From: Hirudinaria manillensis
Taxonomy: Eukaryota > Annelida > Clitellata > Hirudinida > Hirudinidae
Assembly: GCA_034509925.1 (NCBI GenBank)
Contig: CM067535.1
Span: 7,746,701-7,810,700 of the forward strand
Reading direction: 5' to 3'
DNA: 64,000 bases
The translations under genes and the position numbers were made by a program. The notes under the pieces were generated by a model. That model saw only the letters and a list, made by a program, of their open reading frames with translations. It was not told the origin of the DNA and did not search any database. The stretch's first letter is position 1. Each line of letters starts with the position of its first letter. Of the stretch, positions 713-33,700 are shown one piece after another.

Positions 713-3700
713 GTAACTTAATATTTGATTTTGGCATTCATCACTCATAAACCATTTGATATTATTTTGATTTCGATTAGCTGGAACGACTCGAAAAGTT
801 TGCTCTCTGGAAGACATATTAAAGTTGCCAACTACTTCGGTAGTTACATCCCCGGATCTAGGAACCTCTAATGTTCCATTCAAATTCTCTCCACCATTTG
901 ACACGAATCCCACACTCACCGTGACATTCGACGAGACTCGTCGGGTGATGGGCTTTGATTTACTAACTGAAAATGTCAAACAAATTATCGTCAAAGTTAA
1001 TTACCTTGGAGAGCTTCTTGAAACAATGACGTTCAAAGCTGAATCATTCAAGGTTTGCTACATTTTAATATTAGATACCATAATATATTCGATAATAGAG
1101 AAGCTTATATTTAATTCATTGAATGGAAAATATTGGGTTATTTTCTTCACCTAGAAACTATACGAACTTGCACCAGCTAATGCGGACGAAGTAGAATTCG
1201 AAATTGTTCCCGACGATAATTCAAAAGAAGTAGTGGTCAAAGAATTTCTACTTCACGTTTGTGGAAAAGGTTTAATAGCGGGTTTTATAAAAATTTAAAA
1301 TAATGCAGAATAAAGCCTTAATATATATCAAAAACCTTATAAATCATTAAACTATATTCAGGTACAACTGAGGCCATTTATATAATCGGAACAACCACTC
1401 CAAAAATAGGTAGGATTTTATCAAAAAATAAATTGATTAATGAAACAAATAAATCATTTGGTTAAATATAAGAACTGTATAAGGATAAATTAAATATCAT
1501 CTATCAAATCAAAAGATCGACCTCCAGGTTAGTCGACGCGTTGATTACGAAAATGATTCCATTTTCATGCACTCATGCTATTATCGTGTCCAGCGTACAA
1601 GTGCCCAGAAGACGAGGTCAGCGATTTGCCCTCTTCCACATTCACCACCACACCGAACGTCGGTCAAGATACGCCGTTCGACTTCCCTGCGGATCTGCCA
1701 GAAAATCCAAAGGTCACGGTCGCAGTGGGCGATGAACCGAAATTGGTAATGGGCGTCACTGTGACGGCAGACAACGTCAAAGAGGTCGTCGTGACAGTGA
1801 AGACCGAAGGCTTGCCCGATAAGACGTTCACCGAGCCGTACGAACCTGGAAAAGTACGTAAAATTTTTTTGACGCGTTGCATGGAATTATAGCCTTAACG
1901 AGTAAGCATCTATTCCTTTAGGAGTTCTTGCCCGAAGACACACCCGGCCAAAACGTGGTAGTGGAATTCGTTCCCGAAGACGCAACGAAGCCGACAGTCG
2001 TCACGGAATTTGTCGTCACCGTCTGCAAGAAAGGTTAGTGGAGATGCTTTAGACGGAGGCTTTAGAACGAAATCCTATAAAGCCTATGAATGCTTTCAGC
2101 CGTCACCGTTCCGCCCGCACCGACACCTGGAGTTCCATTAACCGTTCCTCCAGGTACGCGTGCCTGTTATTATGCCTATTATTCCGACTATATATCTCTA
2201 CGAGCAAACGTTTTTCGCCGCAGGCGTGACTCCCGGCCTTCTCTTGACCACAACCCCTGGCAAACCCCCGGTTACTAAAGGTGGCTAATCTATCCAAATG
2301 CGAGATGAAACTGTCTTTGATATTCATAAATAATAACACCAATTTTTTTTTATCAAAGTAACGCCTCCAAAAGAAGTAGTTCCCACAGTTCCAGGTTAGT
2401 CGACGCGTTGATTACGAAAATGATTCCATTTTCATGCACTCATGCTATTTTCGTGTACAGCGTACAAGTGCCCAGAAGACGAGGTCAGCGATTTGCCCTC
2501 TTCCACATTCACCACCACACCGAACGTCGGTCAAGATACGCCGTTCGACTTCCCTGCGGATCTGCCAGAAAATCCAAAGGTCACGGTCGCAGTGGGCGAT
2601 GAACCGAAATTGGTAATGGGCGTCACTGTGACGGCAGACAACGTCAAAGAGGTCGTCGTGACAGTGAAGACCGAAGGCTTGCCCGATAAGACGTTCACCG
2701 AGCCGTACGAACCTGGAAAAGTACGTAAAATTTTTTTGACGCGTTGCATGGAATTATAGCCTTAACGAGTAAGCATCTATTCCTTTAGGAGTTCTTGCCC
2801 AGAAGACACACCCGGCCAAAACGTGGTAGTGGAATTCGTTCCCGAAGACGCAACGAAGCCGACAGTCGTCACGGAATTTGTCGTCACCGTCTGCAAGAAA
2901 GGTTAGTGGAGATGCTTTAGACGGAGGCTTTAGAACGAAATCCTATAAAGCCTATGAATGCTTTCAGCCGTCACCGTTCCGCCCGCACCGACACCTGGAG
3001 TTCCATTAACCGTTCCTCCAGGTACGCGTGCCTGTTATTATGCCTATTATTCCGACTATATATCTCTACGAGCAAACGTTTTTCGCCGCAGGCGTGACTC
3101 CCGGCCTTCTCTTGACCACAACCCCTGGCAAACCCCCGGTTACTAAAGGTGGCTAATCTATCCAAATGCGAGATGAAACTGTCTTTGATATTCATAAATA
3201 ATAACACCAATTTTTTTTATCAAAGTAACGCCTCCAAAAGAAGTCGTTCCCACAGTTCCAGGTTAGTCGACGCGTTGATTACGAAAATGATTCCATTTTC
3301 ATGCACTCATGCTATTATCGTGTCCAGCGTACAAGTGCCCAGAAGACGAGGTCAGCGATTTGCCCTCTTCCACATTCACCACCACACCGAACGTCGGTCA
3401 AGATACGCCGTTCGACTTCCCTGCGGATCTGCCAGAAAATCCAAAGGTCACGGTCGCAGTGGGCGATGAACCGAAATTGGTAATGGGCGTCACTGTGACG
3501 GCAGACAACGTCAAAGAGGTCGTCGTGACAGTGAAGACCGAAGGCTTGCCCGATAAGACGTTCACCGAGCCGTACGAACCTGGAAAAGTACGTAAAATTT
3601 TTTTGACGCGTTGCATGGAATTATAGCCTTAACGAGTAAGCATCTATTCCTTTAGGAGTTCTTGCCCGAAGACACACCCGGCCAAAACGTGGTAGTGGAA

Positions 3701-6700
3701 TTCGTTCCCGAAGACGCAACGAAGCCGACAGTCGTCACGGAATTTGTCGTCACCGTCTGCAAGAAAGGTTAGTGGAGATGCTTTAGACGGAGGCTTTAGA
3801 ACGAAATCCTATAAAGCCTATGAATGCTTTCAGCCGTCACCGTTCCGCCCGCACCGACACCTGGAGTTCCATTAACCGTTCCTCCAGGTACGCGTGCCTG
3901 TTATTATGCCTATTATTCCGACTATATATCTCTACGAGCAAACGTTTTTCGCCGCAGGCGTGACTCCCGGCCTTCTCTTGACCACAACCCCTGGCAAAAC
4001 CCCCGGTTACTAAAGGTGGCTAATCTATCCAAATGCGAGATGAAACTGTCTTTGATATTCATAAATAATAAAACCAATTTTTTTTATCAAAGTAACGCCT
4101 CCAAAAGAAGTAGTTCCCACAGTTCCAGGTTAGTCGACGCGTTGATTACGAAAATGATTCCATTTTCATGCACTCATGCTATTTTCGTGTACAGCGTACA
4201 AGTGCCCAGAAGACGAGGTCAGCGATTTGCCCTCTTCCACATTCACCACCACACCGAACGTCGGTCAAGATACGCCGTTCGACTTCCCTGCGGATCTGCC
4301 AGAAAATCCAAAGGTCACGGTCGCAGTGGGCGATGAACCGAAATTGGTAATGGGCGTCACTGTGACGGCAGACAACGTCAAAGAGGTCGTCGTGACAGTG
4401 AAGACCGAAGGCTTGCCCGATAAGACGTTCACCGAGCCGTACGAACCTGGAAAAGTACGTAAAATTTTTTTGACGCGTTGCATGGAATTATAGCCTTAAC
4501 GAGTAAGCATCTATTCCTTTAGGAGTTCTTGCCCGAAGACACACCCGGCCAAAACGTGGTAGTGGAATTCGTTCCCGAAGACGCAACGAAGCCGACAGTC
4601 GTCACGGAATTTGTCGTCACCGTCTGCAAGAAAGGTTAGTGGAGATGCTTTAGACGGAGGCTTTAGAACGAAATCCTATAAAGCCTATGAATGCTTTCAG
4701 CCGTCACCGTTCCGCCCGCACCGACACCTGGAGTTCCATTAACCGTTCCTCCAGGTACGCGTGCCTGTTATTATGCCTATTATTCCGACTATATATCTCT
4801 ACGAGCAAACGTTTTTCGCCGCAGGCGTGACTCCCGGCCTTCTCTTGACCACAACCCCTGGCAAACCCCCGGTTACTAAAGGTGGCTAATCTATCCAAAT
4901 GCGAGATGAAACTGTCTTTGATATTCATAAATAATAAAACCAATTTTTTTTTATCAAAGTAACGCCTCCAAAAGAAGTAGTTCCCACAGTTCCAGGTTAG
5001 TCGACGCGTTGATTACGAAAATGATTCCATTTTCATGCACTCATGCTATTTTCGTGTACAGCGTACAAGTGCCCAGAAGACGAGGTCAGCGATTTGCCCT
5101 CTTCCACATTCACCACCACACCGAACGTCGGTCAAGATACGCCGTTCGACTTCCCTGCGGATCTGCCAGAAAATCCAAAGGTCACGGTCGCAGTGGGCGA
5201 TGAACCGAAATTGGTAATGGGCGTCACTGTGACGGCAGACAACGTCAAAGAGGTCGTCGTGACAGTGAAGACCGAAGGCTTGCCCGATAAGACGTTCACC
5301 GAGCCGTACGAACCTGGAAAAGTACGTAAAATTTTTTTGACGCGTTGCATGGAATTATAGCCTTAACGAGTAAGCATCTATTCCTTTAGGAGTTCTTGCC
5401 CGAAGACACACCCGGCCAAAACGTGGTAGTGGAATTCGTTCCCGAAGACGCAACGAAGCCGACAGTCGTCACGGAATTTGTCGTCACCGTCTGCAAGAAA
5501 GGTTAGTGGAGATGCTTTAGACGGAGGCTTTAGAACGAAATCCTATAAAGCCTATGAATGCTTTCAGCCGTCACCGTTCCGCCCGCACCGACACCTGGAG
5601 TTCCATTAACCGTTCCTCCAGGTACGCGTGCCTGTTATTATGCCTATTATTCCGACTATATTTCTCTACGAGCAAACGTTTTTCGCCGCAGGCGTGACTC
5701 CCGGCCTTCTCTTGACCACAACCCCTGGCAAACCCCCGGTTACTAAAGGTGGCTAATCTATCCAAATGCGAGATGAAACTGTCTTTGATATTCATAAATA
5801 ATAACACCAATTTTTTTTATCAAAGTAACGCCTCCAAAAGAAGTAGTTCCCACAGTTCCAGGTTAGTCGACGCGTTGATTACGAAAATGATTCCATTTTC
5901 ATGCACTCATGCTATTTTCGTGTACAGCGTACAAGTGCCCAGAAGACGAGGTCAGCGATTTGCCCTCTTCCACATTCACCACCACACCGAACGTCGGTCA
6001 AGATACGCCGTTCGACTTCCCTGCGGATCTGCCAGAAAATCCAAAGGTCACGGTCGCAGTGGGCGATGAACCGAAATTGGTAATGGGCGTCACTGTGACG
6101 GCAGACAACGTCAAAGAGGTCGTCGTGACAGTGAAGACCGAAGGCTTGCCCGATAAGACGTTCACCGAGCCGTACGAACCTGGAAAAGTACGTAAAATTT
6201 TTTTGACGCGTTGCATGGAATTATAGCCTTAACGAGTAAGCATCTATTCCTTTAGGAGTTCTTGCCCGAAGACACACCCGGCCAAAACGTGGTAGTGGAA
6301 TTCGTTCCCGAAGACGCAACGAAGCCGACAGTCGTCACGGAATTTGTCGTCACCGTCTGCAAGAAAGGTTAGTGGAGATGCTTTAGACGGAGGCTTTAGA
6401 ACGAAATCCTATAAAGCCTATGAATGCTTTCAGCCGTCACCGTTCCGCCCGCACCGACACCTGGAGTTCCATTAACCGTTCCTCCAGGTACGCGTGCCTG
6501 TTATTATGCCTATTATTCCGACTATATTTCTCTACGAGCAAACGTTTTTCGCCGCAGGCGTGACTCCCGGCCTTCTCTTGACCACAAACCCCTGGCAAAC
6601 CCCCGGTTACTAAAGGTGGCTAATCTATCCAAATGCGAGATGAAACTGTCTTTGATATTCATAAATAATAAAACCAATTTTTTTTATCAAAGTAACGCCT

Positions 6701-9700
6701 CCAAAAGAAGTAGTTCCCACAGTTCCAGGTTAGTCGACGCGTTGATTACGAAAATGATTCCATTTTCATGCACTCATGCTATTTTCGTGTACAGCGTACA
6801 AGTGCCCAGAAGACGAGGTCAGCGATTTGCCCTCTTCCACATTCACCACCACACCGAACGTCGGTCAAGATACGCCGTTCGACTTCCCTGCGGATCTGCC
6901 AGAAAATCCAAAGGTCACGGTCGCAGTGGGCGATGAACCGAAATTGGTAATGGGCGTCACTGTGACGGCAGACAACGTCAAAGAGGTCGTCGTGACAGTG
7001 AAGACCGAAGGCTTGCCCGATAAGACGTTCACCGAGCCGTACGAACCTGGAAAAGTACGTCAAATTTTTTTGACGCGTTGCATGGAATTATAGCCTTAAC
7101 GAGTAAGCATCTATTCCTTTAGGAGTTCTTGCCCGAAGACACACCCGGCCAAAACGTGGTAGTGGAATTCGTTCCCGAAGACGCAACGAAGCCGACAGTC
7201 GTCACGGAATTTGTCGTCACCGTCTGCAAGAAAGGTTAGTGGAGATGCTTTAGACGGAGGCTTTAGAACGAAATCCTATAAAGCCTATGAATGCTTTCAG
7301 CCGTCACCGTTCCGCCCGCACCGACACCTGGAGTTCCATTAACCGTTCCTCCAGGTACGCGTGCCTGTTATTATGCCTATTATTCCGACTATATTTCTCT
7401 ACGAGCAAACGTTTTTCGCCGCAGGCGTGACTCCCGGCCTTCTCTTGACCACAACCCCTGGCAAACCCCCGGTTACTAAAGGTGGCTAATCTATCCAAAT
7501 GCGAGATGAAACTGTCTTTGATATTCATAAATAATAAAACCAATTTTTTTTTATCAAAGTAACGCCTCCAAAAGAAGTAGTTCCCACAGTTCCAGGTTAG
7601 TCGACGCGTTGATTACGAAAATGATTCCATTTTCATGCACTCATGCTATTTTCGTGTACAGCGTACAAGTGCCCAGAAGACGAGGTCAGCGATTTGCCCT
7701 CTTCCACATTCACCACCACACCGAACGTCGGTCAAGATACGCCGTTCGACTTCCCTGCGGATCTGCCAGAAAATCCAAAGGTCACGGTCGCAGTGGGCGA
7801 TGAACCGAAATTGGTAATGGGCGTCACTGTGACGGCAGACAACGTCAAAGAGGTCGTCGTGACAGTGAAGACCGAAGGCTTGCCCGATAAGACGTTCACC
7901 GAGCCGTACGAACCTGGAAAAGTACGTAAAGTTTTTTGACGCGTTGCATGGAATTATAGCCTTAACGAGTAAGCATCTATTCCTTTAGGAGTTCTTGCCC
8001 GAAGACACACCCGGCCAAAACGTGGTAGTGGAATTCGTTCCCGAAGACGCAACGAAGCCGACAGTCGTCACGGAATTTGTCGTCACCGTCTGCAAGAAAG
8101 GTTAGTGGAGATGCTTTAGACGGAGGCTTTAGAACGAAATCCTATAAAGCCTATGAATGCTTTCAGCCGTCACCGTTCCGCCCGCACCGACACCTGGAGT
8201 TCCATTAACCGTTCCTCCAGGTACGCGTGCCTGTTATTATGCCTATTATTCCGACTATATTTCTCTACGAGCAAACGTTTTTCGCCGCAGGCGTGACTCC
8301 CGGCCTTCTCTTGACCACAACCCCTGGCAAACCCCCGGTTACTAAAGGTGGCTAATCTATCCAAATGCGAGATGAAACTGTCTTTGATATTCATAAATAA
8401 TAACACCAATTTTTTTTTATCAAAGTAACGCCTCCAAAAGAAGTAGTTCCCACAGTTCCAGGTTAGTCGACGCGTTGATTACGAAAATGATTCCATTTTC
8501 ATGCACTCATGCTATTTTCGTGTACAGCGTACAAGTGCCCAGAAGACGAGGTCAGCGATTTGCCCTCTTCCACATTCACCACCACACCGAACGTCGGTCA
8601 AGATACGCCGTTCGACTTCCCTGCGGATCTGCCAGAAAATCCAAAGGTCACGGTCGCAGTGGGCGATGAACCGAAATTGGTAATGGGCGTCACTGTGACG
8701 GCAGACAACGTCAAAGAGGTCGTCGTGACAGTGAAGACCGAAGGCTTGCCCGATAAGACGTTCACCGAGCCGTACGAACCTGGAAAAGTACGTAAAATTT
8801 TTTGACGCGTTGCATGGAATTATAGCCTTAACGAGTAAGCATCTATTCCTTTAGGAGTTCTTGCCCGAAGACACACCCGGCCAAAACGTGGTAGTGGAAT
8901 TCGTTCCCGAAGACGCAACGAAGCCGACAGTCGTCACGGAATTTGTCGTCACCGTCTGCAAGAAAGGTTAGTGGAGATGCTTTAGACGGAGGCTTTAGAA
9001 CGAAATCCTATAAAGCCTATGAATGCTTTCAGCCGTCACCGTTCCGCCCGCACCGACACCTGGAGTTCCATTAACCGTTCCTCCAGGTACGCGTGCCTGT
9101 TATTATGCCTATTATTCCGACTATATATCTCTACGAGCAAACGTTTTTCGCCGCAGGCGTGACTCCCGGCCTTCTCTTGACCACAACCCCTGGCAAACCC
9201 CCGGTTACTAAAGGTGGCTAATCTATCCAAATGCGAGATGAAACTGTCTTTGATATTCATAAATAATAAAACCAATTTTTTTTATCAAAGTAACGCCTCC
9301 AAAAGAAGTAGTTCCCACAGTTCCAGGTTAGTCGACGCGTTGATTACGAAAATGATTCCATTTTCATGCACTCATGCTATTTTCGTGTACAGCGTACAAG
9401 TGCCCAGAAGACGAGGTCAGCGATTTGCCTTCTTCCACATTCACCACCACACCGAACGTCGGTCAAGATACGCCGTTCGACTTCCCTGCGGATCTGCCAG
9501 AAAATCCAAAGGTCACGGTCGCAGTGGGCGATGAACCGAAATTGGTAATGGGCGTCACTGTGACGGCAGACAACGTCAAAGAGGTCGTCGTGACAGTGAA
9601 GACCGAAGGCTTGCCCGATAAGACGTTCACCGAGCCGTACGAACCTGGAAAAGTACGTAAAATTTTTTTGACGCGTTGCATGGAATTATAGCCTTAACGA

Positions 9701-12700
9701 GTAAGCATCTATTCCTTTAGGAGTTCTTGCCCGAAGACACACCCGGCCAAAACGTGGTAGTGGAATTCGTTCCCGAAGACGCAACGAAGCCGACAGTCGT
9801 CACGGAATTTGTCGTCACCGTCTGCAAGAAAGGTTAGTGGAGATGCTTTAGACGGAGGCTTTAGAACGAAATCCTATAAAGCCTATGAATGCTTTCAGCC
9901 GTCACCGTTCCGCCCGCACCGACACCTGGAGTTCCATTAACCGTTCCTCCAGGTACGCGTGCCTGTTATTATGCCTATTATTCCGACTATATATCTCTAC
10001 GAGCAAACGTTTTTCGCCGCAGGCGTGACTCCCGGCCTTCTCTTGACCACAACCCCTGGCAAACCCCCGGTTACTAAAGGTGGCTAATCTATCCAAATGC
10101 GAGATGAAACTGTCTTTGATATTCATAAATAATAAAACCAATTTTTTTTTATCAAAGTAACGCCTCCAAAAGAAGTAGTTCCCACAGTTCCAGGTTAGTC
10201 GACGCGTTGATTACGAAAATGATTCCATTTTCATGCACTCATGCTATTTTCGTGTACAGCGTACAAGTGCCCAGAAGACGAGGTCAGCGATTTGCCCTCT
10301 TCCACATTCACCACCACACCGAACGTCGGTCAAGATACGCCGTTCGACTTCCCTGCGGATCTGCCAGAAAATCCAAAGGTCACGGTCGCAGTGGGCGATG
10401 AACCGAAATTGGTAATGGGCGTCACTGTGACGGCAGACAACGTCAAAGAGGTCGTCGTGACAGTGAAGACCGAAGGCTTGCCCGATAAGACGTTCACCGA
10501 GCCGTACGAACCTGGAAAAGTACGTAAAGTTTTTTGGAGCGTTGCATGGAATTATAGCCTTAACGAGTAAGCATCTATTCCTTTAGGAGTTCTTGCCCGA
10601 AGACACACCCGGCCAAAACGTGGTAGTGGAATTCGTTCCCGAAGACGCAACGAAGCCGACAGTCGTCACGGAATTTGTCGTCACCGTCTGCAAGAAAGGT
10701 TAGTGGAGATGCTTTAGACGGAGGCTTTAGAACGAAATCCTATAAAGCCTATGAATGCTTTCAGCCGTCACCGTTCCGCCCGCACCGACACCTGGAGTTC
10801 CATTAACCGTTCCTCCAGGTACGCGTGCCTGTTATTATGCCTATTATTCCGACTATATATCTCTACGAGCAAACGTTTTTCGCCGCAGGCGTGACTCCCG
10901 GCCTTCTCTTGACCACAACCCCTGGCAAACCCCCGGTTACTAAAGGTGGCTAATCTATCCAAATGCGAGATGAAACTGTCTTTGATATTCATAAATAATA
11001 ACACCAATTTTTTTTTATCAAAGTAACGCCTCCAAAAGAAGTAGTTCCCACAGTTCCAGGTTAGTCGACGCGTTGATTACGAAAATGATTCCATTTTCAT
11101 GCACTCATGCTATTTTCGTGTACAGCGTACAAGTGCCCAGAAGACGAGGTCAGCGATTTGCCCTCTTCCACATTCACCACCACACCGAACGTCGGTCAAG
11201 ATACGCCGTTCGACTTCCCTGCGGATCTGCCAGAAAATCCAAAGGTCACGGTCGCAGTGGGCGATGAACCGAAATTGGTAATGGGCGTCACTGTGACGGC
11301 AGACAACGTCAAAGAGGTCGTCGTGACAGTGAAGACCGAAGGCTTGCCCGATAAGACGTTCACCGAGCCGTACGAACCTGGAAAAGTACGTAAAATTTTT
11401 TTGACGCGTTGCATGGAATTATAGCCTTAACGAGTAAGCATCTATTCCTTTAGGAGTTCTTGCCCGAAGACACACCCGGCCAAAACGTGGTAGTGGAATT
11501 CGTTCCCGAAGACGCAACGAAGCCGACAGTCGTCACGGAATTTGTCGTCACCGTCTGCAAGAAAGGTTAGTGGAGATGCTTTAGACGGAGGCTTTAGAAC
11601 GAAATCCTATAAAGCCTATGAATGCTTTCAGCCGTCACCGTTCCGCCCGCACCGACACCTGGAGTTCCATTAACCGTTCCTCCAGGTACGCGTGCCTGTT
11701 ATTATGCCTATTATTCCGACTATATATCTCTACGAGCAAACGTTTTTCGCCGCAGGCGTGACTCCCGGCCTTCTCTTGACCACAACCCCTGGCAAACCCC
11801 CGGTTACTAAAGGTGGCTAATCTATCCAAATGCGAGATGAAACTGTCTTTGATATTCATAAATAATAACACCAATTTTTTTTATCAAAGTAACGCCTCCA
11901 AAAGAAGTAGTTCCCACAGTTCCAGGTTAGTCGACGCGTTGATTACGAAAATGATTCCATTTTCATGCACTCATGCTATTTTCGTGTACAGCGTACAAGT
12001 GCCCAGAAGACGAGGTCAGCGATTTGCCCTCTTCCACATTCACCACCACACCGAACGTCGGTCAAGATACGCCGTTCGACTTCCCTGCGGATCTGCCAGA
12101 AAATCCAAAGGTCACGGTCGCAGTGGGCGATGAACCGAAATTGGTAATGGGCGTCACTGTGACGGCAGACAACGTCAAAGAGGTCGTCGTGACAGTGAAG
12201 ACCGAAGGCTTGCCCGATAAGACGTTCACCGAGCCGTACGAACCTGGAAAAGTACGTAAAATTTTTTTGACGCGTTGCATGGAATTATAGCCTTAACGAG
12301 TAAGCATCTATTCCTTTAGGAGTTCTTGCCCGAAGACACACCCGGCCAAAACGTGGTAGTGGAATTCGTTCCCGAAGACGCAACGAAGCCGACAGTCGTC
12401 ACGGAATTTGTCGTCACCGTCTGCAAGAAAGGTTAGTGGAGATGCTTTAGACGGAGGCTTTAGAACGAAATCCTATAAAGCCTATGAATGCTTTCAGCCG
12501 TCACCGTTCCGCCCGCACCGACACCTGGAGTTCCATTAACCGTTCCTCCAGGTACGCGTGCCTGTTATTATGCCTATTATTCCGACTATATATCTCTACG
12601 AGCAAACGTTTTTCGCCGCAGGCGTGACTCCCGGCCTTCTCTTGACCACAACCCCTGGCAAACCCCCGGTTACTAAAGGTGGCTAATCTATCCAAATGCG

Positions 12701-15700
12701 AGATGAAACTGTCTTTGATATTCATAAATAATAACACCAATTTTTTTTATCAAAGTAACGCCTCCAAAAGAAGTAGTTCCCACAGTTCCAGGTTAGTCGA
12801 CGCGTTGATTACGAAAATGATTCCATTTTCATGCACTCATGCTATTTTCGTGTACAGCGTACAAGTGCCCAGAAGACGAGGTCAGCGATTTGCCCTCTTC
12901 CACATTCACCACCACACCGAACGTCGGTCAAGATACGCCGTTCGACTTCCCTGCGGATCTGCCAGAAAATCCAAAGGTCACGGTCGCAGTGGGCGATGAA
13001 CCGAAATTGGTAATGGGCGTCACTGTGACGGCAGACAACGTCAAAGAGGTCGTCGTGACAGTGAAGACCGAAGGCTTGCCCGATAAGACGTTCACCGAGC
13101 CGTACGAACCTGGAAAAGTACGTAAAGTTTTTTGGAGCGTTGCATGGAATTATAGCCTTAACGAGTAAGCATCTATTCCTTTAGGAGTTCTTGCCCGAAG
13201 ACACACCCGGCCAAAACGTGGTAGTGGAATTCGTTCCCGAAGACGCAACGAAGCCGACAGTCGTCACGGAATTTGTCGTCACCGTCTGCAAGAAAGGTTA
13301 GTGGAGATGCTTTAGACGGAGGCTTTAGAACGAAATCCTATAAAGCCTATGAATGCTTTCAGCCGTCACCGTTCCGCCCGCACCGACACCTGGAGTTCCA
13401 TTAACCGTTCCTCCAGGTACGCGTGCCTGTTATTATGCCTATTATTCCGACTATATATCTCTACGAGCAAACGTTTTTCGCCGCAGGCGTGACTCCCGGC
13501 CTTCTCTTGACCACAACCCCTGGCAAACCCCCGGTTATACTAAAGGTGGCTAATCTATCCAAATGCGAGATGAAACTGTCTTTGATATTCATAAATAATA
13601 ACACCAATTTTTTTTATCAAAGTAACGCCTCCAAAAGAAGTAGTTCCCACAGTTCCAGGTTAGTCGACGCGTTGATTACGAAAATGATTCCATTTTCATG
13701 CACTCATGCTATTTTCGTGTACAGCGTACAAGTGCCCAGAAGACGAGGTCAGCGATTTGCCCTCTTCCACATTCACCACCACACCGAACGTCGGTCAAGA
13801 TACGCCGTTCGACTTCCCTGCGGATCTGCCAGAAAATCCAAAGGTCACGGTCGCAGTGGGCGATGAACCGAAATTGGTAATGGGCGTCACTGTGACGGCA
13901 GACAACGTCAAAGAGGTCGTCGTGACAGTGAAGACCGAAGGCTTGCCCGATAAGACGTTCACCGAGCCGTACGAACCTGGAAAAGTACGTAAAATTTTTT
14001 TGACGCGTTGCATGGAATTATAGCCTTAACGAGTAAGCATCTATTCCTTTAGGAGTTCTTGCCCGAAGACACACCCGGCCAAAACGTGGTAGTGGAATTC
14101 GTTCCCGAAGACGCAACGAAGCCGACAGTCGTCACGGAATTTGTCGTCACCGTCTGCAAGAAAGGTTAGTGGAGATGCTTTAGACGGAGGCTTTAGAACG
14201 AAATCCTATAAAGCCTATGAATGCTTTCAGCCGTCACCGTTCCGCCCGCACCGACACCTGGAGTTCCATTAACCGTTCCTCCAGGTACGCGTGCCTGTTA
14301 TTATGCCTATTATTCCGACTATATATCTCTACGAGCAAACGTTTTTCGCCGCAGGCGTGACTCCCGGCCTTCTCTTGACCACAACCCCTGGCAAACCCCC
14401 GGTTACTAAAGGTGGCTAATCTATCCAAATGCGAGATGAAACTGTCTTTGATATTCATAAATAATAACACCAATTTTTTTTTATCAAAGTAACGCCTCCA
14501 AAAGAAGTAGTTCCCACAGTTCCAGGTTAGTCGACGCGTTGATTACGAAAATGATTCCATTTTCATGCACTCATGCTATTTTCGTGTACAGCGTACAAGT
14601 GCCCAGAAGACGAGGTCAGCGATTTGCCCTCTTCCACATTCACCACCACACCGAACGTCGGTCAAGATACGCCGTTCGACTTCCCTGCGGATCTGCCAGA
14701 AAATCCAAAGGTCACGGTCGCAGTGGGCGATGAACCGAAATTGGTAATGGGCGTCACTGTGACGGCAGACAACGTCAAAGAGGTCGTCGTGACAGTGAAG
14801 ACCGAAGGCTTGCCCGATAAGACGTTCACCGAGCCGTACGAACCTGGAAAAGTACGTAAAGTTTTTTGACGCGTTGCATGGAATTATAGCCTTAACGAGT
14901 AAGCATCTATTCCTTTAGGAGTTCTTGCCCGAAGACACACCCGGCCAAAACGTGGTAGTGGAATTCGTTCCCGAAGACGCAACGAAGCCGACAGTCGTCA
15001 CGGAATTTGTCGTCACCGTCTGCAAGAAAGGTTAGTGGAGATGCTTTAGACGGAGGCTTTAGAACGAAATCCTATAAAGCCTATGAATGCTTTCAGCCGT
15101 CACCGTTCCGCCCGCACCGACACCTGGAGTTCCATTAACCGTTCCTCCAGGTACGCGTGCCTGTTATTATGCCTATTATTCCGACTATATATCTCTACGA
15201 GCAAACGTTTTTCGCCGCAGGCGTGACTCCCGGCCTTCTCTTGACCACAACCCCTGGCAAAACCCCCGGTTACTAAAGGTGGCTAATCTATCCAAATGCG
15301 AGATGAAACTGTCTTTAATATTCATAAATAATAAAACCAATTTTTTTTATCAAAGTAACGCCTCCAAAAGAAGTAGTTCCCACAGTTCCAGGTTAGTCGA
15401 CGCGTTGATTACGAAAATGATTCCATTTTCATGCACTCATGCTATTTTCGTGTACAGCGTACAAGTGCCCAGAAGACGAGGTCAGCGATTTGCCCTCTTC
15501 CACATTCACCACCACACCGAACGTCGGTCAAGATACGCCGTTCGACTTCCCTGCGGATCTGCCAGAAAATCCAAAGGTCACGGTCGCAGTGGGCGATGAA
15601 CCGAAATTGGTAATGGGCGTCACTGTGACGGCAGACAACGTCAAAGAGGTCGTCGTGACAGTGAAGACCGAAGGCTTGCCCGATAAGACGTTCACCGAGC

Positions 15701-21700: not shown

Positions 21701-24700
21701 GTCGTCGTGACAGTGAAGACCGAAGGCTTGCCCGATAAGACGTTCACCGAGCCGTACGAACCTGGAAAAGTACGTAAAATTTTTTTGACGCGTTGCATGG
21801 AATTATAGCCTTAACGAGTAAGCATCTATTCCTTTAGGAGTTCTTGCCCGAAGACACACCCGGCCAAAACGTGGTAGTGGAATTCGTTCCCGAAGACGCA
21901 ACGAAGCCGACAGTCGTCACGGAATTTGTCGTCACCGTCTGCAAGAAAGGTTAGTGGAGATGCTTTAGACGGAGGCTTTAGAACGAAATCCTATAAAGCC
22001 TATGAATGCTTTCAGCCGTCACCGTTCCGCCCGCACCGACACCTGGAGTTCCATTAACCGTTCCTCCAGGTACGCGTGCCTGTTATTATGCCTATTATTC
22101 CGACTATATATCTCTACGAGCAAACGTTTTTCGCCGCAGGCGTGACTCCCGGCCTTCTCTTGACCACAACCCCTGGCAAACCCCCGGTTACTAAAGGTGG
22201 CTAATCTATCCAAATGCGAGATGAAACTGTCTTTGATATTCATAAATAATAACACCAATTTTTTTATCAAAGTAACGCCTCCAAAAGAAGTAGTTCCCAC
22301 AGTTCCAGGTTAGTCGACGCGTTGATTACGAAAATGATTCCATTTTCATGCACTCATGCTATTTTCGTGTACAGCGTACAAGTGCCCAGAAGACGAGGTC
22401 AGCGATTTGCCCTCTTCCACATTCACCACCACACCGAACGTCGGTCAAGATACGCCGTTCGACTTCCCTGCGGATCTGCCAGAAAATCCAAAGGTCACGG
22501 TCGCAGTGGGCGATGAACCGAAATTGGTAATGGGCGTCACTGTGACGGCAGACAACGTCAAAGAGGTCGTCGTGACAGTGAAGACCGAAGGCTTGCCCGA
22601 TAAGACGTTCACCGAGCCGTACGAACCTGGAAAAGTACGTAAAATTTTTTTGACGCGTTGCATGGAATTATAGCCTTAACGAGTAAGCATCTATTCCTTT
22701 AGGAGTTCTTGCCCGAAGACACCCGGCCAAAACGTGGTAGTGGAATTCGTTCCCGAAGACGCAACGAAGCCGACAGTCGTCACGGAATTTGTCGTCACCG
22801 TCTGCAAGAAAGGTTAGTGGAGATGCTTTAGACGGAGGCTTTAGAACGAAATCCTATAAAGCCTATGAATGCTTTCAGCCGTCACCGTTCCGCCCGCACC
22901 GACACCTGGAGTTCCATTAACCGTTCCTCCAGGTACGCGTGCCTGTTATTATGCCTATTATTCCGACTATATATCTCTACGAGCAAACGTTTTTCGCCGC
23001 AGGCGTGACTCCCGGCCTTCTCTTGACCACAACCCCTGGCAAACCCCCGGTTACTAAAGGTGGCTAATCTATCCAAATGCGAGATGAAACTGTCTTTGAT
23101 ATTCATAAATAATAACACCAATTTTTTTATCAAAGTAACGCCTCCAAAAGAAGTAGTTCCCACAGTTCCAGGTTAGTCGACGCGTTGATTACGAAAATGA
23201 TTCCATTTTCATGCACTCATGCTATTTTCGTGTACAGCGTACAAGTGCCCAGAAGACGAGGTCAGCGATTTGCCCTCTTCCACATTCACCACCACACCGA
23301 ACGTCGGTCAAGATACGCCGTTCGACTTCCCTGCGGATCTGCCAGAAAATCCAAAGGTCACGGTCGCAGTGGGCGATGAACCGAAATTGGTAATGGGCGT
23401 CACTGTGACGGCAGACAACGTCAAAGAGGTCGTCGTGACAGTGAAGACCGAAGGCTTGCCCGATAAGACGTTCACCGAGCCGTACGAACCTGGAAAAGTA
23501 CGTAAAATTTTTTGACGCGTTGCATGGAATTATAGCCTTAACGAGGAAGCATCTATTCCTTTAGGAGTTCTTGCCCGAAGACACACCCGGCCAAAACGTG
23601 GTAGTGGAATTCGTTCCCGAAGACGCAACGAAGCCGACAGTCGTCACGGAATTTGTCGTCACCGTCTGCAAGAAAGGTTAGTGGAGATGCTTTAGACGGA
23701 GGCTTTAGAACGAAATCCTATAAAGCCTATGAATGCTTTCAGCCGTCACCGTTCCGCCCGCACCGACACCTGGAGTTCCATTAACCGTTCCTCCAGGTAC
23801 GCGTGCCTGTTATTATGCCTATTATTCCGACTATATATCTCTACGAGCAAACGTTTTTCGCCGCAGGCGTGACTCCCGGCCTTCTCTTGACCACAACCCC
23901 TGGCAAACCCCCGGTTACTAAAGGTGGCTAATCTATCCAAATGCGAGATGAAACTGTCTTTGATATTCATAAATAATAACACCAATTTTTTTATCAAAGT
24001 AACGCCTCCAAAAGAAGTAGTTCCCACAGTTCCAGGTTAGTCGACGCGTTGATTACGAAAATGATTCCATTTTCATGCACTCATGCTATTTTCGTGTACA
24101 GCGTACAAGTGCCCAGAAGACGAGGTCAGCGATTTGCCCTCTTCCACATTCACCACCACACCGAACGTCGGTCAAGATACGCCGTTCGACTTCCCTGCGG
24201 ATCTGCCAGAAAATCCAAAGGTCACGGTCGCAGTGGGCGATGAACCGAAATTGGTAATGGGCGTCACTGTGACGGCAGACAACGTCAAAGAGGTCGTCGT
24301 GACAGTGAAGACCGAAGGCTTGCCCGATAAGACGTTCACCGAGCCGTACGAACCTGGAAAAGTACGTAAAATTTTTTTGACGCGTTGCATGGAATTATAG
24401 CCTTAACGAGTAAGCATCTATTCCTTTAGGAGTTCTTGCCCGAAGACACACCCGGCCAAAACGTGGTAGTGGAATTCGTTCCCGAAGACGCAACGAAGCC
24501 GACAGTCGTCACGGAATTTGTCGTCACCGTCTGCAAGAAAGGTTAGTGGAGATGCTTTAGACGGAGGCTTTAGAACGAAATCCTATAAAGCCTATGAATG
24601 CTTTCAGCCGTCACCGTTCCGCCCGCACCGACACCTGGAGTTCCATTAACCGTTCCTCCAGGTACGCGTGCCTGTTATTATGCCTATTATTCCGACTATA

Positions 24701-27700
24701 TATCTCTACGAGCAAACGTTTTTCGCCGCAGGCGTGACTCCCGGCCTTCTCTTGACCACAACCCCTGGCAAACCCCCGGTTACTAAAGGTGGCTAATCTA
24801 TCCAAATGCGAGATGAAACTGTCTTTGATATTCATAAATAATAAAACCAATTTTTTTTATCAAAGTAACGCCTCCAAAAGAAGTAGTTCCCACAGTTCCA
24901 GGTTAGTCGACGCGTTGATTACGAAAATGATTCCATTTTCATGCACTCATGCTATTTTCGTGTACAGCGTACAAGTGCCCAGAAGACGAGGTCAGCGATT
25001 TGCCCTCTTCCACATTCACCACCACACCGAACGTCGGTCAAGATACGCCGTTCGACTTCCCTGCGGATCTGCCAGAAAATCCAAAGGTCACGGTCGCAGT
25101 GGGCGATGAACCGAAATTGGTAATGGGCGTCACTGTGACGGCAGACAACGTCAAAGAGGTCGTCGTGACAGTGAAGACCGAAGGCTTGCCCGATAAGACG
25201 TTCACCGAGCCGTACGAACCTGGAAAAGTACGTAAAATTTTTTTGACGCGTTGCATGGAATTATAGCCTTAACGAGTAAGCATCTATTCCTTTAGGAGTT
25301 CTTGCCCGAAGACACACCCGGCCAAAACGTGGTAGTGGAATTCGTTCCCGAAGACGCAACGAAGCCGACAGTCGTCACGGAATTTGTCGTCACCGTCTGC
25401 AAGAAAGGTTAGTGGAGATGCTTTAGACGGAGGCTTTAGAACGAAATCCTATAAAGCCTATGAATGCTTTCAGCCGTCACCGTTCCGCCCGCACCGACAC
25501 CTGGAGTTCCATTAACCGTTCCTCCAGGTACGCGTGCCTGTTATTATGCCTATTATTCCGACTATATATCTCTACGAGCAAACGTTTTTCGCCGCAGGCG
25601 TGACTCCCGGCCTTCTCTTGACCACAACCCCTGGCAAACCCCGGTTACTAAAGGTGGCTAATCTATCCAAATGCGAGATGAAACTGTCTTTGATATTCAT
25701 AAATAATAACACCAATTTTTTTTATCAAAGTAACGCCTCCAAAAGAAGTAGTTCCCACAGTTCCAGGTTAGTCGACGCGTTGATTACGAAAATGATTCCA
25801 TTTTCATGCACTCATGCTATTTTCGTGTACAGCGTACAAGTGCCCAGAAGACGAGGTCAGCGATTTGCCCTCTTCCACATTCACCACCACACCGAACGTC
25901 GGTCAAGATACGCCGTTCGACTTCCCTGCGGATCTGCCAGAAAATCCAAAGGTCACGGTCGCAGTGGGCGATGAACCGAAATTGGTAATGGGCGTCACTG
26001 TGACGGCAGACAACGTCAAAGAGGTCGTCGTGACAGTGAAGACCGAAGGCTTGCCCGATAAGACGTTCACCGAGCCGTACGAACCTGGAAAAGTACGTAA
26101 AATTTTTTTGACGCGTTGCATGGAATTATAGCCTTAACGAGTAAGCATCTATTCCTTTAGGAGTTCTTGCCCGAAGACACACCCGGCCAAAACGTGGTAG
26201 TGGAATTCGTTCCCGAAGACGCAACGAAGCCGACAGTCGTCACGGAATTTGTCGTCACCGTCTGCAAGAAAGGTTAGTGGAGATGCTTTAGACGGAGGCT
26301 TTAGAACGAAATCCTATAAAGCCTATGAATGCTTTCAGCCGTCACCGTTCCGCCCGCACCGACACCTGGAGTTCCATTAACCGTTCCTCCAGGTACGCGT
26401 GCCTGTTATTATGCCTATTATTCCGACTATATATCTCTACGAGCAAACGTTTTTCGCCGCAGGCGTGACTCCCGGCCTTCTCTTGACCACAACCCCTGGC
26501 AAACCCCCGGTTACTAAAGGTGGCTAATCTATCCAAATGCGAGATGAAACTGTCTTTGATATTCATAAATAATAAAACCAATTTTTTTTATCAAAGTAAC
26601 GCCTCCAAAAGAAGTAGTTCCCACAGTTCCAGGTTAGTCGACGCGTTGATTACGAAAATGATTCCATTTTCATGCACTCATGCTATTTTCGTGTACAGCG
26701 TACAAGTGCCCAGAAGACGAGGTCAGCGATTTGCCCTCTTCCACATTCACCACCACACCGAACGTCGGTCAAGATACGCCGTTCGACTTCCCTGCGGATC
26801 TGCCAGAAAATCCAAAGGTCACGGTCGCAGTGGGCGATGAACCGAAATTGGTAATGGGCGTCACTGTGACGGCAGACAACGTCAAAGAGGTCGTCGTGAC
26901 AGTGAAGACCGAAGGCTTGCCCGATAAGACGTTCACCGAGCCGTACGAACCTGGAAAAGTACGTAAAATTTTTTTGACGCGTTGCATGGAATTATAGCCT
27001 TAACGAGTAAGCATCTATTCCTTTAGGAGTTCTTGCCCGAAGACACACCCGGCCAAAACGTGGTAGTGGAATTCGTTCCCGAAGACGCAACGAAGCCGAC
27101 AGTCGTCACGGAATTTGTCGTCACCGTCTGCAAGAAAGGTTAGTGGAGATGCTTTAGACGGAGGCTTTAGAACGAAATCCTATAAAGCCTATGAATGCTT
27201 TCAGCCGTCACCGTTCCGCCCGCACCGACACCTGGAGTTCCATTAACCGTTCCTCCAGGTACGCGTGCCTGTTATTATGCCTATTATTCCGACTATATAT
27301 CTCTACGAGCAAACGTTTTTCGCCGCAGGCGTGACTCCCGGCCTTCTCTTGACCACAACCCCTGGCAAACCCCCGGTTACTAAAGGTGGCTAATCTATCC
27401 AAATGCGAGATGAAACTGTCTTTGATATTCATAAATAATAACACCAATTTTTTTTATCAAAGTAACGCCTCCAAAAGAAGTAGTTCCCACAGTTCCAGGT
27501 TAGTCGACGCGTTGATTACGAAAATGATTCCATTTTCATGCACTCATGCTATTTTCGTGTACAGCGTACAAGTGCCCAGAAGACGAGGTCAGCGATTTGC
27601 CCTCTTCCACATTCACCACCACACCGAACGTCGGTCAAGATACGCCGTTCGACTTCCCTGCGGATCTGCCAGAAAATCCAAAGGTCACGGTCGCAGTGGG

Positions 27701-30700
27701 CGATGAACCGAAATTGGTAATGGGCGTCACTGTGACGGCAGACAACGTCAAAGAGGTCGTCGTGACAGTGAAGACCGAAGGCTTGCCCGATAAGACGTTC
27801 ACCGAGCCGTACGAACCTGGAAAAGTACGTAAAATTTTTTTGACGCGTTGCATGGAATTATAGCCTTAACGAGTAAGCATCTATTCCTTTAGGAGTTCTT
27901 GCCCGAAGACACACCCGGCCAAAACGTGGTAGTGGAATTCGTTCCCGAAGACGCAACGAAGCCGACAGTCGTCACGGAATTTGTCGTCACCGTCTGCAAG
28001 AAAGGTTAGTGGAGATGCTTTAGACGGAGGCTTTAGAACGAAATCCTATAAAGCCTATGAATGCTTTCAGCCGTCACCGTTCCGCCCGCACCGACACCTG
28101 GAGTTCCATTAACCGTTCCTCCAGGTACGCGTGCCTGTTATTATGCCTATTATTCCGACTATATATCTCTACGAGCAAACGTTTTTCGCCGCAGGCGTGA
28201 CTCCCGGCCTTCTCTTGACCACAACCCCTGGCAAACCCCCGGTTACTAAAGGTGGCTAATCTATCCAAATGCGAGATGAAACTGTCTTTGATATTCATAA
28301 ATAATAACACCAATTTTTTTTATCAAAGTAACGCCTCCAAAAGAAGTAGTTCCCACAGTTCCAGGTTAGTCGACGCGTTGATTACGAAAATGATTCCATT
28401 TTCATGCACTCATGCTATTTTCGTGTACAGCGTACAAGTGCCCAGAAGACGAGGTCAGCGATTTGCCCTCTTCCACATTCACCACCACACCGAACGTCGG
28501 TCAAGATACGCCGTTCGACTTCCCTGCGGATCTGCCAGAAAATCCAAAGGTCACGGTCGCAGTGGGCGATGAACCGAAATTGGTAATGGGCGTCACTGTG
28601 ACGGCAGACAACGTCAAAGAGGTCGTCGTGACAGTGAAGACCGAAGGCTTGCCCGATAAGACGTTCACCGAGCCGTACGAACCTGGAAAAGTACGTAAAA
28701 TTTTTTTGACGCGTTGCATGGAATTATAGCCTTAACGAGTAAGCATCTATTCCTTTAGGAGTTCTTGCCCGAAGACACACCCGGCCAAAACGTGGTAGTG
28801 GAATTCGTTCCCGAAGACGCAACGAAGCCGACAGTCGTCACGGAATTTGTCGTCACCGTCTGCAAGAAAGGTTAGTGGAGATGCTTTAGACGGAGGCTTT
28901 AGAACGAAATCCTATAAAGCCTATGAATGCTTTCAGCCGTCACCGTTCCGCCCGCACCGACACCTGGAGTTCCATTAACCGTTCCTCCAGGTACGCGTGC
29001 CTGTTATTATGCCTATTATTCCGACTATATATCTCTACGAGCAAACGTTTTTCGCCGCAGGCGTGACTCCCGGCCTTCTCTTGACCACAACCCCTGGCAA
29101 ACCCCCGGTTACTAAAGGTGGCTAATCTATCCAAATGCGAGATGAAACTGTCTTTGATATTCATAAATAATAACACCAATTTTTTTTATCAAAGTAACGC
29201 CTCCAAAAGAAGTAGTTCCCACAGTTCCAGGTTAGTCGACGCGTTGATTACGAAAATGATTCCATTTTCATGCACTCATGCTATTTTCGTGTACAGCGTA
29301 CAAGTGCCCAGAAGACGAGGTCAGCGATTTGCCCTCTTCCACATTCACCACCACACCGAACGTCGGTCAAGATACGCCGTTCGACTTCCCTGCGGATCTG
29401 CCAGAAAATCCAAAGGTCACGGTCGCAGTGGGCGATGAACCGAAATTGGTAATGGGCGTCACTGTGACGGCAGACAACGTCAAAGAGGTCGTCGTGACAG
29501 TGAAGACCGAAGGCTTGCCCGATAAGACGTTCACCGAGCCGTACGAACCTGGAAAAGTACGTAAAATTTTTTTGACGCGTTGCATGGAATTATAGCCTTA
29601 ACGAGTAAGCATCTATTCCTTTAGGAGTTCTTGCCCGAAGACACACCCGGCCAAAACGTGGTAGTGGAATTCGTTCCCGAAGACGCAACGAAGCCGACAG
29701 TCGTCACGGAATTTGTCGTCACCGTCTGCAAGAAAGGTTAGTGGAGATGCTTTAGACGGAGGCTTTAGAACGAAATCCTATAAAGCCTATGAATGCTTTC
29801 AGCCGTCACCGTTCCGCCCGCACCGACACCTGGAGTTCCATTAACCGTTCCTCCAGGTACGCGTGCCTGTTATTATGCCTATTATTCCGACTATATATCT
29901 CTACGAGCAAACGTTTTTCGCCGCAGGCGTGACTCCCGGCCTTCTCTTGACCACAACCCCTGGCAAACCCCCGGTTACTAAAGGTGGCTAATCTATCCAA
30001 ATGCGAGATGAAACTGTCTTTGATATTCATAAATAATAACACCAATTTTTTTTTATCAAAGTAACGCCTCCAAAAGAAGTAGTTCCCACAGTTCCAGGTT
30101 AGTCGACGCGTTGATTACGAAAATGATTCCATTTTCATGCACTCATGCTATTTTCGTGTACAGCGTACAAGTGCCCAGAAGACGAGGTCAGCGATTTGCC
30201 CTCTTCCACATTCACCACCACACCGAACGTCGGTCAAGATACGCCGTTCGACTTCCCTGCGGATCTGCCAGAAAATCCAAAGGTCACGGTCGCAGTGGGC
30301 GATGAACCGAAATTGGTAATGGGCGTCACTGTGACGGCAGACAACGTCAAAGAGGTCGTCGTGACAGTGAAGACCGAAGGCTTGCCCGATAAGACGTTCA
30401 CCGAGCCGTACGAACCTGGAAAAGTACGTAAAATTTTTTTGACGCGTTGCATGGAATTATAGCCTTAACGAGTAAGCATCTATTCCTTTAGGAGTTCTTG
30501 CCCGAAGACACACCCGGCCAAAACGTGGTAGTGGAATTCGTTCCCGAAGACGCAACGAAGCCGACAGTCGTCACGGAATTTGTCGTCACCGTCTGCAAGA
30601 AAGGTTAGTGGAGATGCTTTAGACGGAGGCTTTAGAACGAAATCCTATAAAGCCTATGAATGCTTTCAGCCGTCACCGTTCCGCCCGCACCGACACCTGG

Positions 30701-33700
30701 AGTTCCATTAACCGTTCCTCCAGGTACGCGTGCCTGTTATTATGCCTATTATTCCGACTATATCTCTACGAGCAAACGTTTTTCGCCGCAGGCGTGACTC
30801 CCGGCCTTCTCTTGACCACAACCCCTGGCAAACCCCCGGTTACTAAAGGTGGCTAATCTATCCAAATGCGAGATGAAACTGTCTTTGATATTCATAAATA
30901 ATAACACCAATTTTTTTTATCAAAGTAACGCCTCCAAAAGAAGTAGTTCCCACAGTTCCAGGTTAGTCGACGCGTTGATTACGAAAATGATTCCATTTTC
31001 ATGCACTCATGCTATTTTCGTGTACAGCGTACAAGTGCCCAGAAGACGAGGTCAGCGATTTGCCCTCTTCCACATTCACCACCACACCGAACGTCGGTCA
31101 AGATACGCCGTTCGACTTCCCTGCGGATCTGCCAGAAAATCCAAAGGTCACGGTCGCAGTGGGCGATGAACCGAAATTGGTAATGGGCGTCACTGTGACG
31201 GCAGACAACGTCAAAGAGGTCGTCGTGACAGTGAAGACCGAAGGCTTGCCCGATAAGACGTTCACCGAGCCGTACGAACCTGGAAAAGTACGTAAAATTT
31301 TTTTGACGCGTTGCATGGAATTATAGCCTTAACGAGTAAGCATCTATTCCTTTAGGAGTTCTTGCCCGAAGACACACCCGGCCAAAACGTGGTAGTGGAA
31401 TTCGTTCCCGAAGACGCAACGAAGCCGACAGTCGTCACGGAATTTGTCGTCACCGTCTGCAAGAAAGGTTAGTGGAGATGCTTTAGACGGAGGCTTTAGA
31501 ACGAAATCCTATAAAGCCTATGAATGCTTTCAGCCGTCACCGTTCCGCCCGCACCGACACCTGGAGTTCCATTAACCGTTCCTCCAGGTACGCGTGCCTG
31601 TTATTATGCCTATTATTCCGACTATATATCTCTACGAGCAAACGTTTTTCGCCGCAGGCGTGACTCCCGGCCTTCTCTTGACCACAACCCCTGGCAAACC
31701 CCCGGTTACTAAAGGTGGCTAATCTATCCAAATGCGAGATGAAACTGTCTTTGATATTCATAAATAATAACACCAATTTTTTTTATCAAAGTAACGCCTC
31801 CAAAAGAAGTAGTTCCCACAGTTCCAGGTTAGTCGACGCGTTGATTACGAAAATGATTCCATTTTCATGCACTCATGCTATTTTCGTGTACAGCGTACAA
31901 GTGCCCAGAAGACGAGGTCAGCGATTTGCCCTCTTCCACATTCACCACCACACCGAACGTCGGTCAAGATACGCCGTTCGACTTCCCTGCGGATCTGCCA
32001 GAAAATCCAAAGGTCACGGTCGCAGTGGGCGATGAACCGAAATTGGTAATGGGCGTCACTGTGACGGCAGACAACGTCAAAGAGGTCGTCGTGACAGTGA
32101 AGACCGAAGGCTTGCCCGATAAGACGTTCACCGAGCCGTACGAACCTGGAAAAGTACGTAAAATTTTTTTGACGCGTTGCATGGAATTATAGCCTTAACG
32201 AGTAAGCATCTATTCCTTTAGGAGTTCTTGCCCGAAGACACACCCGGCCAAAACGTGGTAGTGGAATTCGTTCCCGAAGACGCAACGAAGCCGACAGTCG
32301 TCACGGAATTTGTCGTCACCGTCTGCAAGAAAGGTTGGTAGAAATTATTCTTTAGATTAAAATTGCTTTTGGCCGATTAGGGTTTGGGGGTTAGGGTTAG
32401 GGTTAGGGTTATTCTTTAGATTAAAATTGCTTTTGGCCGATTACATTGGTTGTTTTGTCATTTTTTCATATGATCTTGTTTTTTTTACTTGTTTAATCTT
32501 TTTAAGCTCCACCGACAACCGCAGTACCACGTGAGTGTTTTCAACTTACTGATATATATATATATATATATAACAATATTTAACAAAAGTATTTTGTTTG
32601 TTATTTCGATGATAATTCTTTATTTAGCAGCTTCGTCTGCTGTCCCCACCAGTGAGTAACCGTGTTTGAGAATTTTCTTTTTTGTTTTGCTTGTGGAATT
32701 TCTTCTTTCTAGAATCAATTTAATTTACGGAAAGCTTAGTAAAATCTATATTATAATGTATATATATGGGATATATTTTATTAAATTATAATTTATTATT
32801 TATTCACTAACATTAGAATTCCAAATAACTCCCACTCCGTTTGTTACGAAAGAAAGGACAACAGGTAGTGACAATTGAAATAATGTATTATTGTCATTTG
32901 GACTGCCAGAAATAGTTTATTTTTGAACGATTAATTCTCTTAAAACAATTTATTGTTATGTGAACTAACATTGCCACTTGAAGGTACAACACTATATAGT
33001 AAAACCAAAAGATGCTTATACTAAAACAATTTTTAAGAGATATTATCAACAATTCTCAAAAATAATTTTTTTTACAGGCTTTACTGGAACACCTGGTAAC
33101 ATTCGTTAAACTATGAAACGTTTTGATTGCAGGAATGTACTAAAAGTTAAACTTATATTAAATCGAATCTTATCCAGGTGCTTGCATAGTCACTGTGACT
33201 CCATCATTGGAACGTCTCGTCAAGAATCCGAGCGATTACGTAGGATGGGTTGAAAAGGACGGTCAAGGAGGCCTAACGAGTCCAGATGAAAAGGTGAAAC
33301 CTGGAGATGTCATTGACGGTGGCATTCAAGTCTACATTAATAGTTGCTACTATTGGTGAGAAAATCTTGGGTGTACTTGATTGTGAAATCTTACGCATCA
33401 TTTGCTGTTATATCTCCAATGTATTGATATAAAATGCAAATCCTCTGCAATTCATATTATCCAATATTACATTATTATTTTGTGGTTACTGATAACAGCC
33501 AAAATATTTGCATAAACTCGCGTGTATGACTTGTACAATGTATGACTTCGATAACGCTCAAGGAGAAATTTTATTGATATGAAAATTCAACTTTCAAATA
33601 CTCTTCAATTCATCCAGTACTTGCGGAGCTGATAATACGCTTCAATGTCAAGTTAGTACAGCTTAAATTCTATCCTATTTTTTTTTATTTACAATTACAT

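Follow-up and report, generated by a model that had tools for sequence, protein, structure and literature searches.

Results

Array of 36 units

We describe a tandem array in the annelid Hirudinaria manillensis that lies, according to our gene model, inside one giant gene for a secreted protein. The window, that is the whole stretch of 64,000 nucleotides analysed, spans C10:7746701-7810700 (C10 is the name used here for contig CM067535.1) in a genome of 148.4 Mb and 23 contigs. An exact 24-base anchor from exon A of the repeated unit occurs 36 times, from window position 1594 to 31894, with a spacing of 863-867 bp, as had been counted in an earlier sequence-only reading of this DNA. When the 35 complete units are aligned, 28 of 872 columns are variable; mean pairwise identity is 99.83% and the lowest is 99.31%. 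A full unit is composed of five exons, A (260 nt), B (112 nt), C (54 nt), D (57 nt) and E (36 nt), which add up to 519 nt and encode 173 residues. The sequence-only reading assigned five exons to every copy, which holds for the 35 full units and fails for unit 36, made up of exons A and B only.

Splice sites are conserved throughout, as previously proposed: within the window, all 177 exons of the array are preceded by AG and followed by GT. Exon A occurs in two DNA versions with one synonymous difference, and its 87-residue translation is indeed identical in all 36 units. The intron between A and B is in phase 0 and the remaining array introns are in phase 1, so that the gain or loss of A+B, of C, of D or of E leaves the frame as it is. 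The window part of the gene model comprises 6,698 residues in 191 exons, in agreement with the earlier estimate of about 6.7 thousand residues and some 196 exons. GC content of array exons and introns is 0.558 and 0.375, versus 0.408 and 0.234 in one adjoining header of diverged domains, thus 14-15 points higher in the array. This difference fits GC-biased conversion, and other causes are possible.

Whole gene

The gene was modelled with a simple splice model written for this analysis (codon usage, GT/AG dinucleotides, phase) and run on four stretches; array exons were placed by alignment and then joined to the splice-model exons. On C10 the modelled gene occupies 86.5 kb, starting at 7694998 and stopping at 7781486. 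The stop was set by eye, as the model itself ran on into the next gene. The earlier picture of a 31-kb array inside one gene thus stands on the model and proves incomplete: the start lies about 52 kb upstream of the window, which holds only the 3' part, and two more blocks of 23 and 14 units precede the array. The model contains about 430 exons, about 16,200 residues and 86 A+B domains, the first two figures being approximate because the printed totals (434 exons, 16,234 residues) include four pseudo-exons at block ends. A giant repetitive secreted protein, as proposed before, is therefore what the gene model predicts.

The modelled protein begins with a signal peptide and an EGF-like stretch (both assigned by eye), followed by three vWD assemblies and two LDLa domains. 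Next come five diverged A+B domains, one unit, the diverged pair D7-D8, 22 units, D7-D8 again and 14 units. The last part consists of D9, D10, D7 and D8, the 36 units of the window, a VWC-like region and a probable cystine knot. Homogenised blocks of 23 (1+22), 14 and 36 units, referred to as blocks 1, 2 and 3, account for 73 of the 86 A+B domains. A genome search with exon A returned 76 matches, all at C10 7.707-7.779 Mb, three of them being the diverged D8 copies. AG and GT flank 111 of 115 exons in block 1 and 69 of 70 in block 2; the four exceptions in block 1 are the D and E columns of its two end units, b1_01 and b1_23, where these columns extend into the next header. Identity is 97.1-99.7% among the three D7-D8 headers and 97.9-99.1% among the block consensus units, which indicates that header plus array was duplicated as a whole. 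The possibility that the stretch holds several genes was rejected on the model, because no stop or new start is needed between the blocks.

Two further observations were made in this region. Block 1 (C10:7709800-7729000) has two unit spacings, about 866 and 920 bp, the longer with an extra ~53 bp. About 5 kb upstream of the gene, at C10:7689900-7690700, there is a diverged copy of its first exons (63% of 789 aligned bases), possibly an alternative start or the remnant of a duplicate.

N-terminal family

The sequence-only reading could name no family for this protein. That does not hold for the N-terminus, where profiles of described proteins match clearly: Pfam assigns VWD to three stretches (E 8.5e-40), C8 to two, TIL to four, LDLa to two and PF23244 to two. 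Among solved structures, it matches Mucin-2 (6.3e-119), Mucin-5AC (5.2e-111), vWF (7.5e-108), Mucin-5B (1.6e-107) and FCGBP (2.8e-99); its third vWD segment can be aligned to MUC2, MUC5AC and FCGBP. Three N-terminal vWD-C8-TIL assemblies, as in gel-forming mucins, are thus present (with C8 in two, not three, in this gene), and so is the combination of three vWD domains with LDLa, as in SCO-spondin. A scan of five segments at E 0.01, with no separate scan of the short linker exons, gave neither thrombospondin nor EMI domains.

Repeat domain

The repeat is where the earlier statement stands. The domain, encoded by two exons (A+B), has two conserved cysteines, and its array version is an acidic domain of 124 residues without tryptophan, histidine or arginine, which makes sugar binding in the usual mode unlikely. 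Arginine is absent from the entire unit as well. Among 19 domain sequences, none matched F5/8C, CBM32 or any other galactose-binding-like family of Pfam at E 0.1; the only Pfam matches were weak, below threshold and each confined to one of the 19 members. Searches of PDB sequences with 10-row and 19-row profiles found no relative, the best matches (E 0.17 and 0.089) being unrelated proteins. Structure prediction of the diverged copy D8 gives a galactose-binding-like jelly-roll fold, one that the family profiles do not recognise. In a tree built from 20 domain rows, one of 17 inner branches is starred; most of the tree lacks resolution, and it is too weak to show whether the two arrays of this genome (see below) grew from corresponding domains.

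Paralogue

A paralogue lies on the minus strand of C10, from about 7,100,400 to about 7,035,000, ~0.6 Mb from the first gene; it was examined in C10:7018001-7108000. Its N-terminal domains are VWD x3, C8 x3, TIL x4 and LDLa x3. The vWD part is followed by diverged A+B domains, an array, a two-domain repeat present three times and an end with VWC-like and probable cystine-knot parts. Neither a signal peptide nor a stop was found in the paralogue, whose model runs on into the next gene. Its array has 50 anchored units, mostly of four exons, at a spacing of 696-874 bp; compared with unit 11 they show a median identity of 99.9% and a lowest of 95.4%. The array domains of the two genes are 28% identical. 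Each gene's array has thus been amplified, or at least homogenised, since the genes parted.

Features of the window and other loci

The features of the gene within the window are collected in Table 1. The intron directly after the last unit (window 32345-32443) contains a TTAGGG telomere-like stretch (~32380-32408) flanked by two copies of one 35-bp sequence; it looks as if telomere repeats were added at a break. Downstream, at window 36200-41000, the gene model indicates a gene that by eye resembles 4-aminobutyrate aminotransferase, and a CATC microsatellite of about 31 copies (97% matches) occupies window 38911-39033.

Table 1. Features of the modelled gene in the window (window coordinates)
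Feature	Position	Strand	Basis or remark
Diverged repeat domain D7	1..452; exon A 1-239 (cut by window start), exon B 338-452	+	gene model, alignment
Linker exon between D7 and D8	665..712	+	gene model
Diverged repeat domain D8	781..1269; exon A 781-1052, exon B 1155-1269	+	predicted galactose-binding-like jelly roll
Homogenised array, 36 units (35 of exons A-E, last A+B only)	1594..32333	+	anchor, alignment
Array unit 1, exons	1594-1853, 1922-2033, 2100-2153, 2224-2280, 2359-2394	+	
Array unit 36, exons	31894-32153, 32222-32333	+	
Two short P/T/S-rich linker exons	32507..32651 (32507-32530, 32628-32651)	+	gene model
VWC-like cysteine-rich region	33178..34150; exons 33178-33355, 33618-33651, 33741-33851, 34093-34150	+	gene model; paralogue shares cysteines
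Probable C-terminal cystine-knot (CTCK) region	34284..34697; exons 34284-34495, 34580-34697	+	gene model; paralogue
Last exon with stop codon	34782..34786	+	placed by eye; AATAAA at 34880

Other vWD domains are present in the genome, with at least 26 matches. Several are clustered (C2:4522721-4551756, C2:3112271-3118498, C2:10483769-10488355, C10:5028753-5034164), and single places occur on C3, C5 and C6. A cox1 match at C9:3026446-3027786, equal in score to that of the mitochondrial contig, reflects either a recent transfer of mitochondrial DNA to the nucleus or an assembly error. The mitochondrial contig itself has 15,581 bp and 16% GC, with TGA read as Trp in cox1. Its order is cox1-N-cox2-D-atp8-G-Y-cox3-Q-nad6-cob, then, after a masked stretch between cob and nad4, nad4-C-M-V-L-S-A-L-nad1-I-K-nad3-(one tRNA)-nad2, which we take to be the annelid ground plan; some of the ARAGORN tRNA calls behind it overlap or are doubtful. 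The long run of Ns in this contig, like 5,000 Ns in the DNA upstream of the window, looks like masked sequence.

Discussion

We propose that the array forms the centre of one giant gene of this annelid, whose product is secreted, belongs to the superfamily of vWF, gel-forming mucins and SCO-spondin, and polymerises into a gel or an adhesive; we consider this explanation likely. By analogy with homologues, disulphides would join the chains, head to head through the N-terminal vWD assemblies and tail to tail through the C-terminal cystine knot. The long middle would be a string of ~86 small domains, acidic in the array and joined by Pro/Thr-rich linkers, each with two conserved cysteines and a predicted jelly-roll fold of the galactose-binding-like type. 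Such a very long charged strand could produce a gel or adhesive outside the cell, and the earlier suggestion of a structural, mucus or adhesive material still seems a fair one. Unequal crossing-over and gene conversion may have spread the unit, introns included, and kept its copies alike; as A+B pairs and linker exons begin and end in phase 1, any number of units keeps the frame.

Several points weigh against this explanation. The gene is known here from genomic DNA alone, and its exon structure is that predicted by our own simple splice model. Structure prediction of the array copy itself gave a poor model (pLDDT 53, pTM 0.53) with a mixed Foldseek list, and for this reason the fold assignment relies on D8. 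Serine and threonine never exceed 32% in any 100 residues tested (N-terminus, middle, three array units in a row, C-terminus), and reach 36% in the paralogue. As the PTS domain of mucins has about 40% or more over 100 residues, the protein is no true mucin by the usual rule. The CTCK domain named by the sequence-only reading receives indirect support. The C-terminal 254 residues of this gene have no Pfam match above cut-off and no match among PDB sequences, and the paralogue's C-terminal segment gives no Pfam match for CTCK either. The VWC-like region matches VWC2L_C weakly (E 0.0075, below the family cut-off). The last 103 residues of the paralogue match Norrin only weakly (E 0.0042), with Bursicon at 0.18; both are cystine-knot proteins, and both rank above the unrelated matches (from E 0.48). 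The C-terminal ends of the two genes are 30% identical, with 22 of 23 cysteines in common. Because the paralogue's end aligns with that of our gene and finds cystine-knot proteins, the end is a probable cystine knot. A genome search for this cysteine-rich end found only the two exons of this gene; it does not imply uniqueness, as the same search missed the 30%-identical end of the paralogue.

The reading phase, said earlier to be continuous, is broken as assembled in 7 of the 36 window units, by indels in exon B (units 2 and 25) or exon D (units 3, 6, 14, 16 and 28). Such indels also occur in 5 of 23 units of block 1 and in none of the 14 of block 2, making 12 of 73 units and 14 events in the whole gene, and in 3 of 49 units of the paralogue array; exons D and E were counted in all units other than b1_01, b1_23, b3_36 and the paralogue's unit 50. 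Codon changes were compared with each block's consensus in units with all exons of standard length (16/23, 11/14 and 28/36 units of blocks 1, 2 and 3; 43/50 of the paralogue, A+B only); for the blocks of this gene, 401 synonymous and 1,112 non-synonymous single changes are possible. Distinct synonymous and non-synonymous changes number 7 and 2 in block 1, 7 and 10 in block 2, 1 and 0 in block 3, and 1 and 6 in the A+B domain of the paralogue. Of the ten non-synonymous changes in block 2, seven lie in the same stretch of exon E and each occurs in one unit. Block 1 looks constrained and block 3 either constrained or very recently homogenised; the paralogue is not clearly constrained, and neither it nor block 2 shows a clear sign of purifying selection.

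If the indels were real, the array would be partly decayed, and the chain would stop early or units would be skipped in splicing. With 12 of 73 units affected, and with C, D, E and the A+B pair all bounded by phase 1 and so skippable without loss of frame, this reading has something to recommend it. We nevertheless hold it to be improbable, as 10 of the 14 events are one-base changes in the length of a single-base run (the other four comprise a single-base insertion and three two-base changes), one unit, b1_17, holds three of the 14, and block 3 has, over its 28 intact units, one synonymous and no non-synonymous change. Many indels beside almost no substitutions in block 3 suggest errors of the assembly consensus rather than decay, which is likely but unproven. 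A non-coding, satellite-like array in a large intron, with the real gene joining vWD exons directly to the cystine knot, would also explain a tandem, homogenised and intron-bearing repeat, as satellite DNA can be all of these. Splice sites intact in every array exon of the window, diverged A+B domains with the same two-exon plan both upstream and between the blocks, and the same arrangement in the paralogue make this reading very hard to credit.

Two other readings keep the gene and change its task. Instead of mucus or glue, the product might be an extracellular fibre or matrix protein like SCO-spondin, located in the nervous system, the body cavity or the cuticle, with the same polymerisation at another site. 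SCO-spondin is described with three vWD, LDLa, one FA5/8C and one CTCK (PMC8487547); three vWD, LDLa and probably the knot are common to both proteins, and the fold predicted for our repeat is of the FA5/8C kind. However, this gene has no thrombospondin or EMI match in the segments scanned and ~86 predicted jelly-roll domains instead of one FA5/8C, and its huge, near-identical central repeat is closer to the flatworm adhesive protein Mlig-ap2, so we regard such a role as unlikely. A specifically adhesive or tube-cement protein, analogous to Mlig-ap2 or to limpet P-vulgata_3, is a narrower form of the explanation we prefer, so that the two overlap; we advance it tentatively and with some doubt. 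It is favoured by the domain set of P-vulgata_3, whereas Mlig-ap2 ends in thrombospondin repeats and not in a cystine knot, its likeness is one of description and a role in gland secretion would be by analogy.

Beyond this locus, the two genes suggest a broader proposal, for and against which we see the chances as even: that an undescribed galactose-binding-like domain family provides the load-bearing beads in one class of polymer proteins of annelids, whose multi-exon units, introns included, have been repeatedly and independently amplified and homogenised (73 units here; 50 plus a two-domain repeat in the paralogue), so that protein length could vary between individuals by hundreds of kilodaltons, with phase-1 boundaries keeping the frame. 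If expressed as modelled, the polymer-forming protein of ~16,200 residues would have folded acidic beads as its repeats where mucins have dense PTS tracts, and would represent another route to a gel or glue from the vWF/mucin framework. With two paralogues that each hold an array of a unit of their own, a single genome allows tests of how giant repetitive proteins arise and are maintained; the 173-residue unit also lends itself to use as a recombinant material.

Comparison with known systems

Gel-forming mucins (MUC2, MUC5AC, MUC5B) and vWF resemble the modelled protein in their N-terminal vWD/C8/TIL domains and repetitive centre, and probably also in their cystine-knot end. In place of the PTS domain, however, there is here a two-cysteine domain with a linker low in Ser/Thr. 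The repeats of canonical human mucins are coded in one large exon, according to the part of a preprint cited here (PMC13345508), in contrast to our intron-bearing units. Repeats split by introns have a precedent in chicken Muc13, a transmembrane SEA mucin described, in the excerpt cited, as having at least 12 near-identical repeats of 20 residues, each its own exon (PMC1552070), unlike the 73 units of 173 residues and five exons each found here.

Literature searches on annelid relatives, judged by title and abstract opening, gave no annelid protein of this kind. Gel-forming mucins of placozoans and other early animals are covered by published work. For sea star adhesive proteins, the part of the report cited describes vWF D together with FA58C or galactose-binding domains within a single secretion (PMC9382459). 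By analogy, the nearest in plan appear to be Mlig-ap2 and P-vulgata_3. The limpet protein is summarised as C8 x2, vWFD x3, TIL x2 and LDL receptor class A x5 in 1,604 residues (PMC7333891); it shares this domain set with our gene and differs in its small size, and the description cited mentions no such repeat. Mlig-ap2 of Macrostomum lignano, a protein of 14,794 residues, is reported in the passages cited to have N-terminal vWF, TIL and LDL receptor domains and a centre of 21 x 255 and 25 x 221 residue repeats (PMC6410801). In this N-terminal set and giant repetitive centre, compared by description only, it is like the leech protein modelled here, which differs in its probable cystine knot where Mlig-ap2 has a thrombospondin C-terminus.

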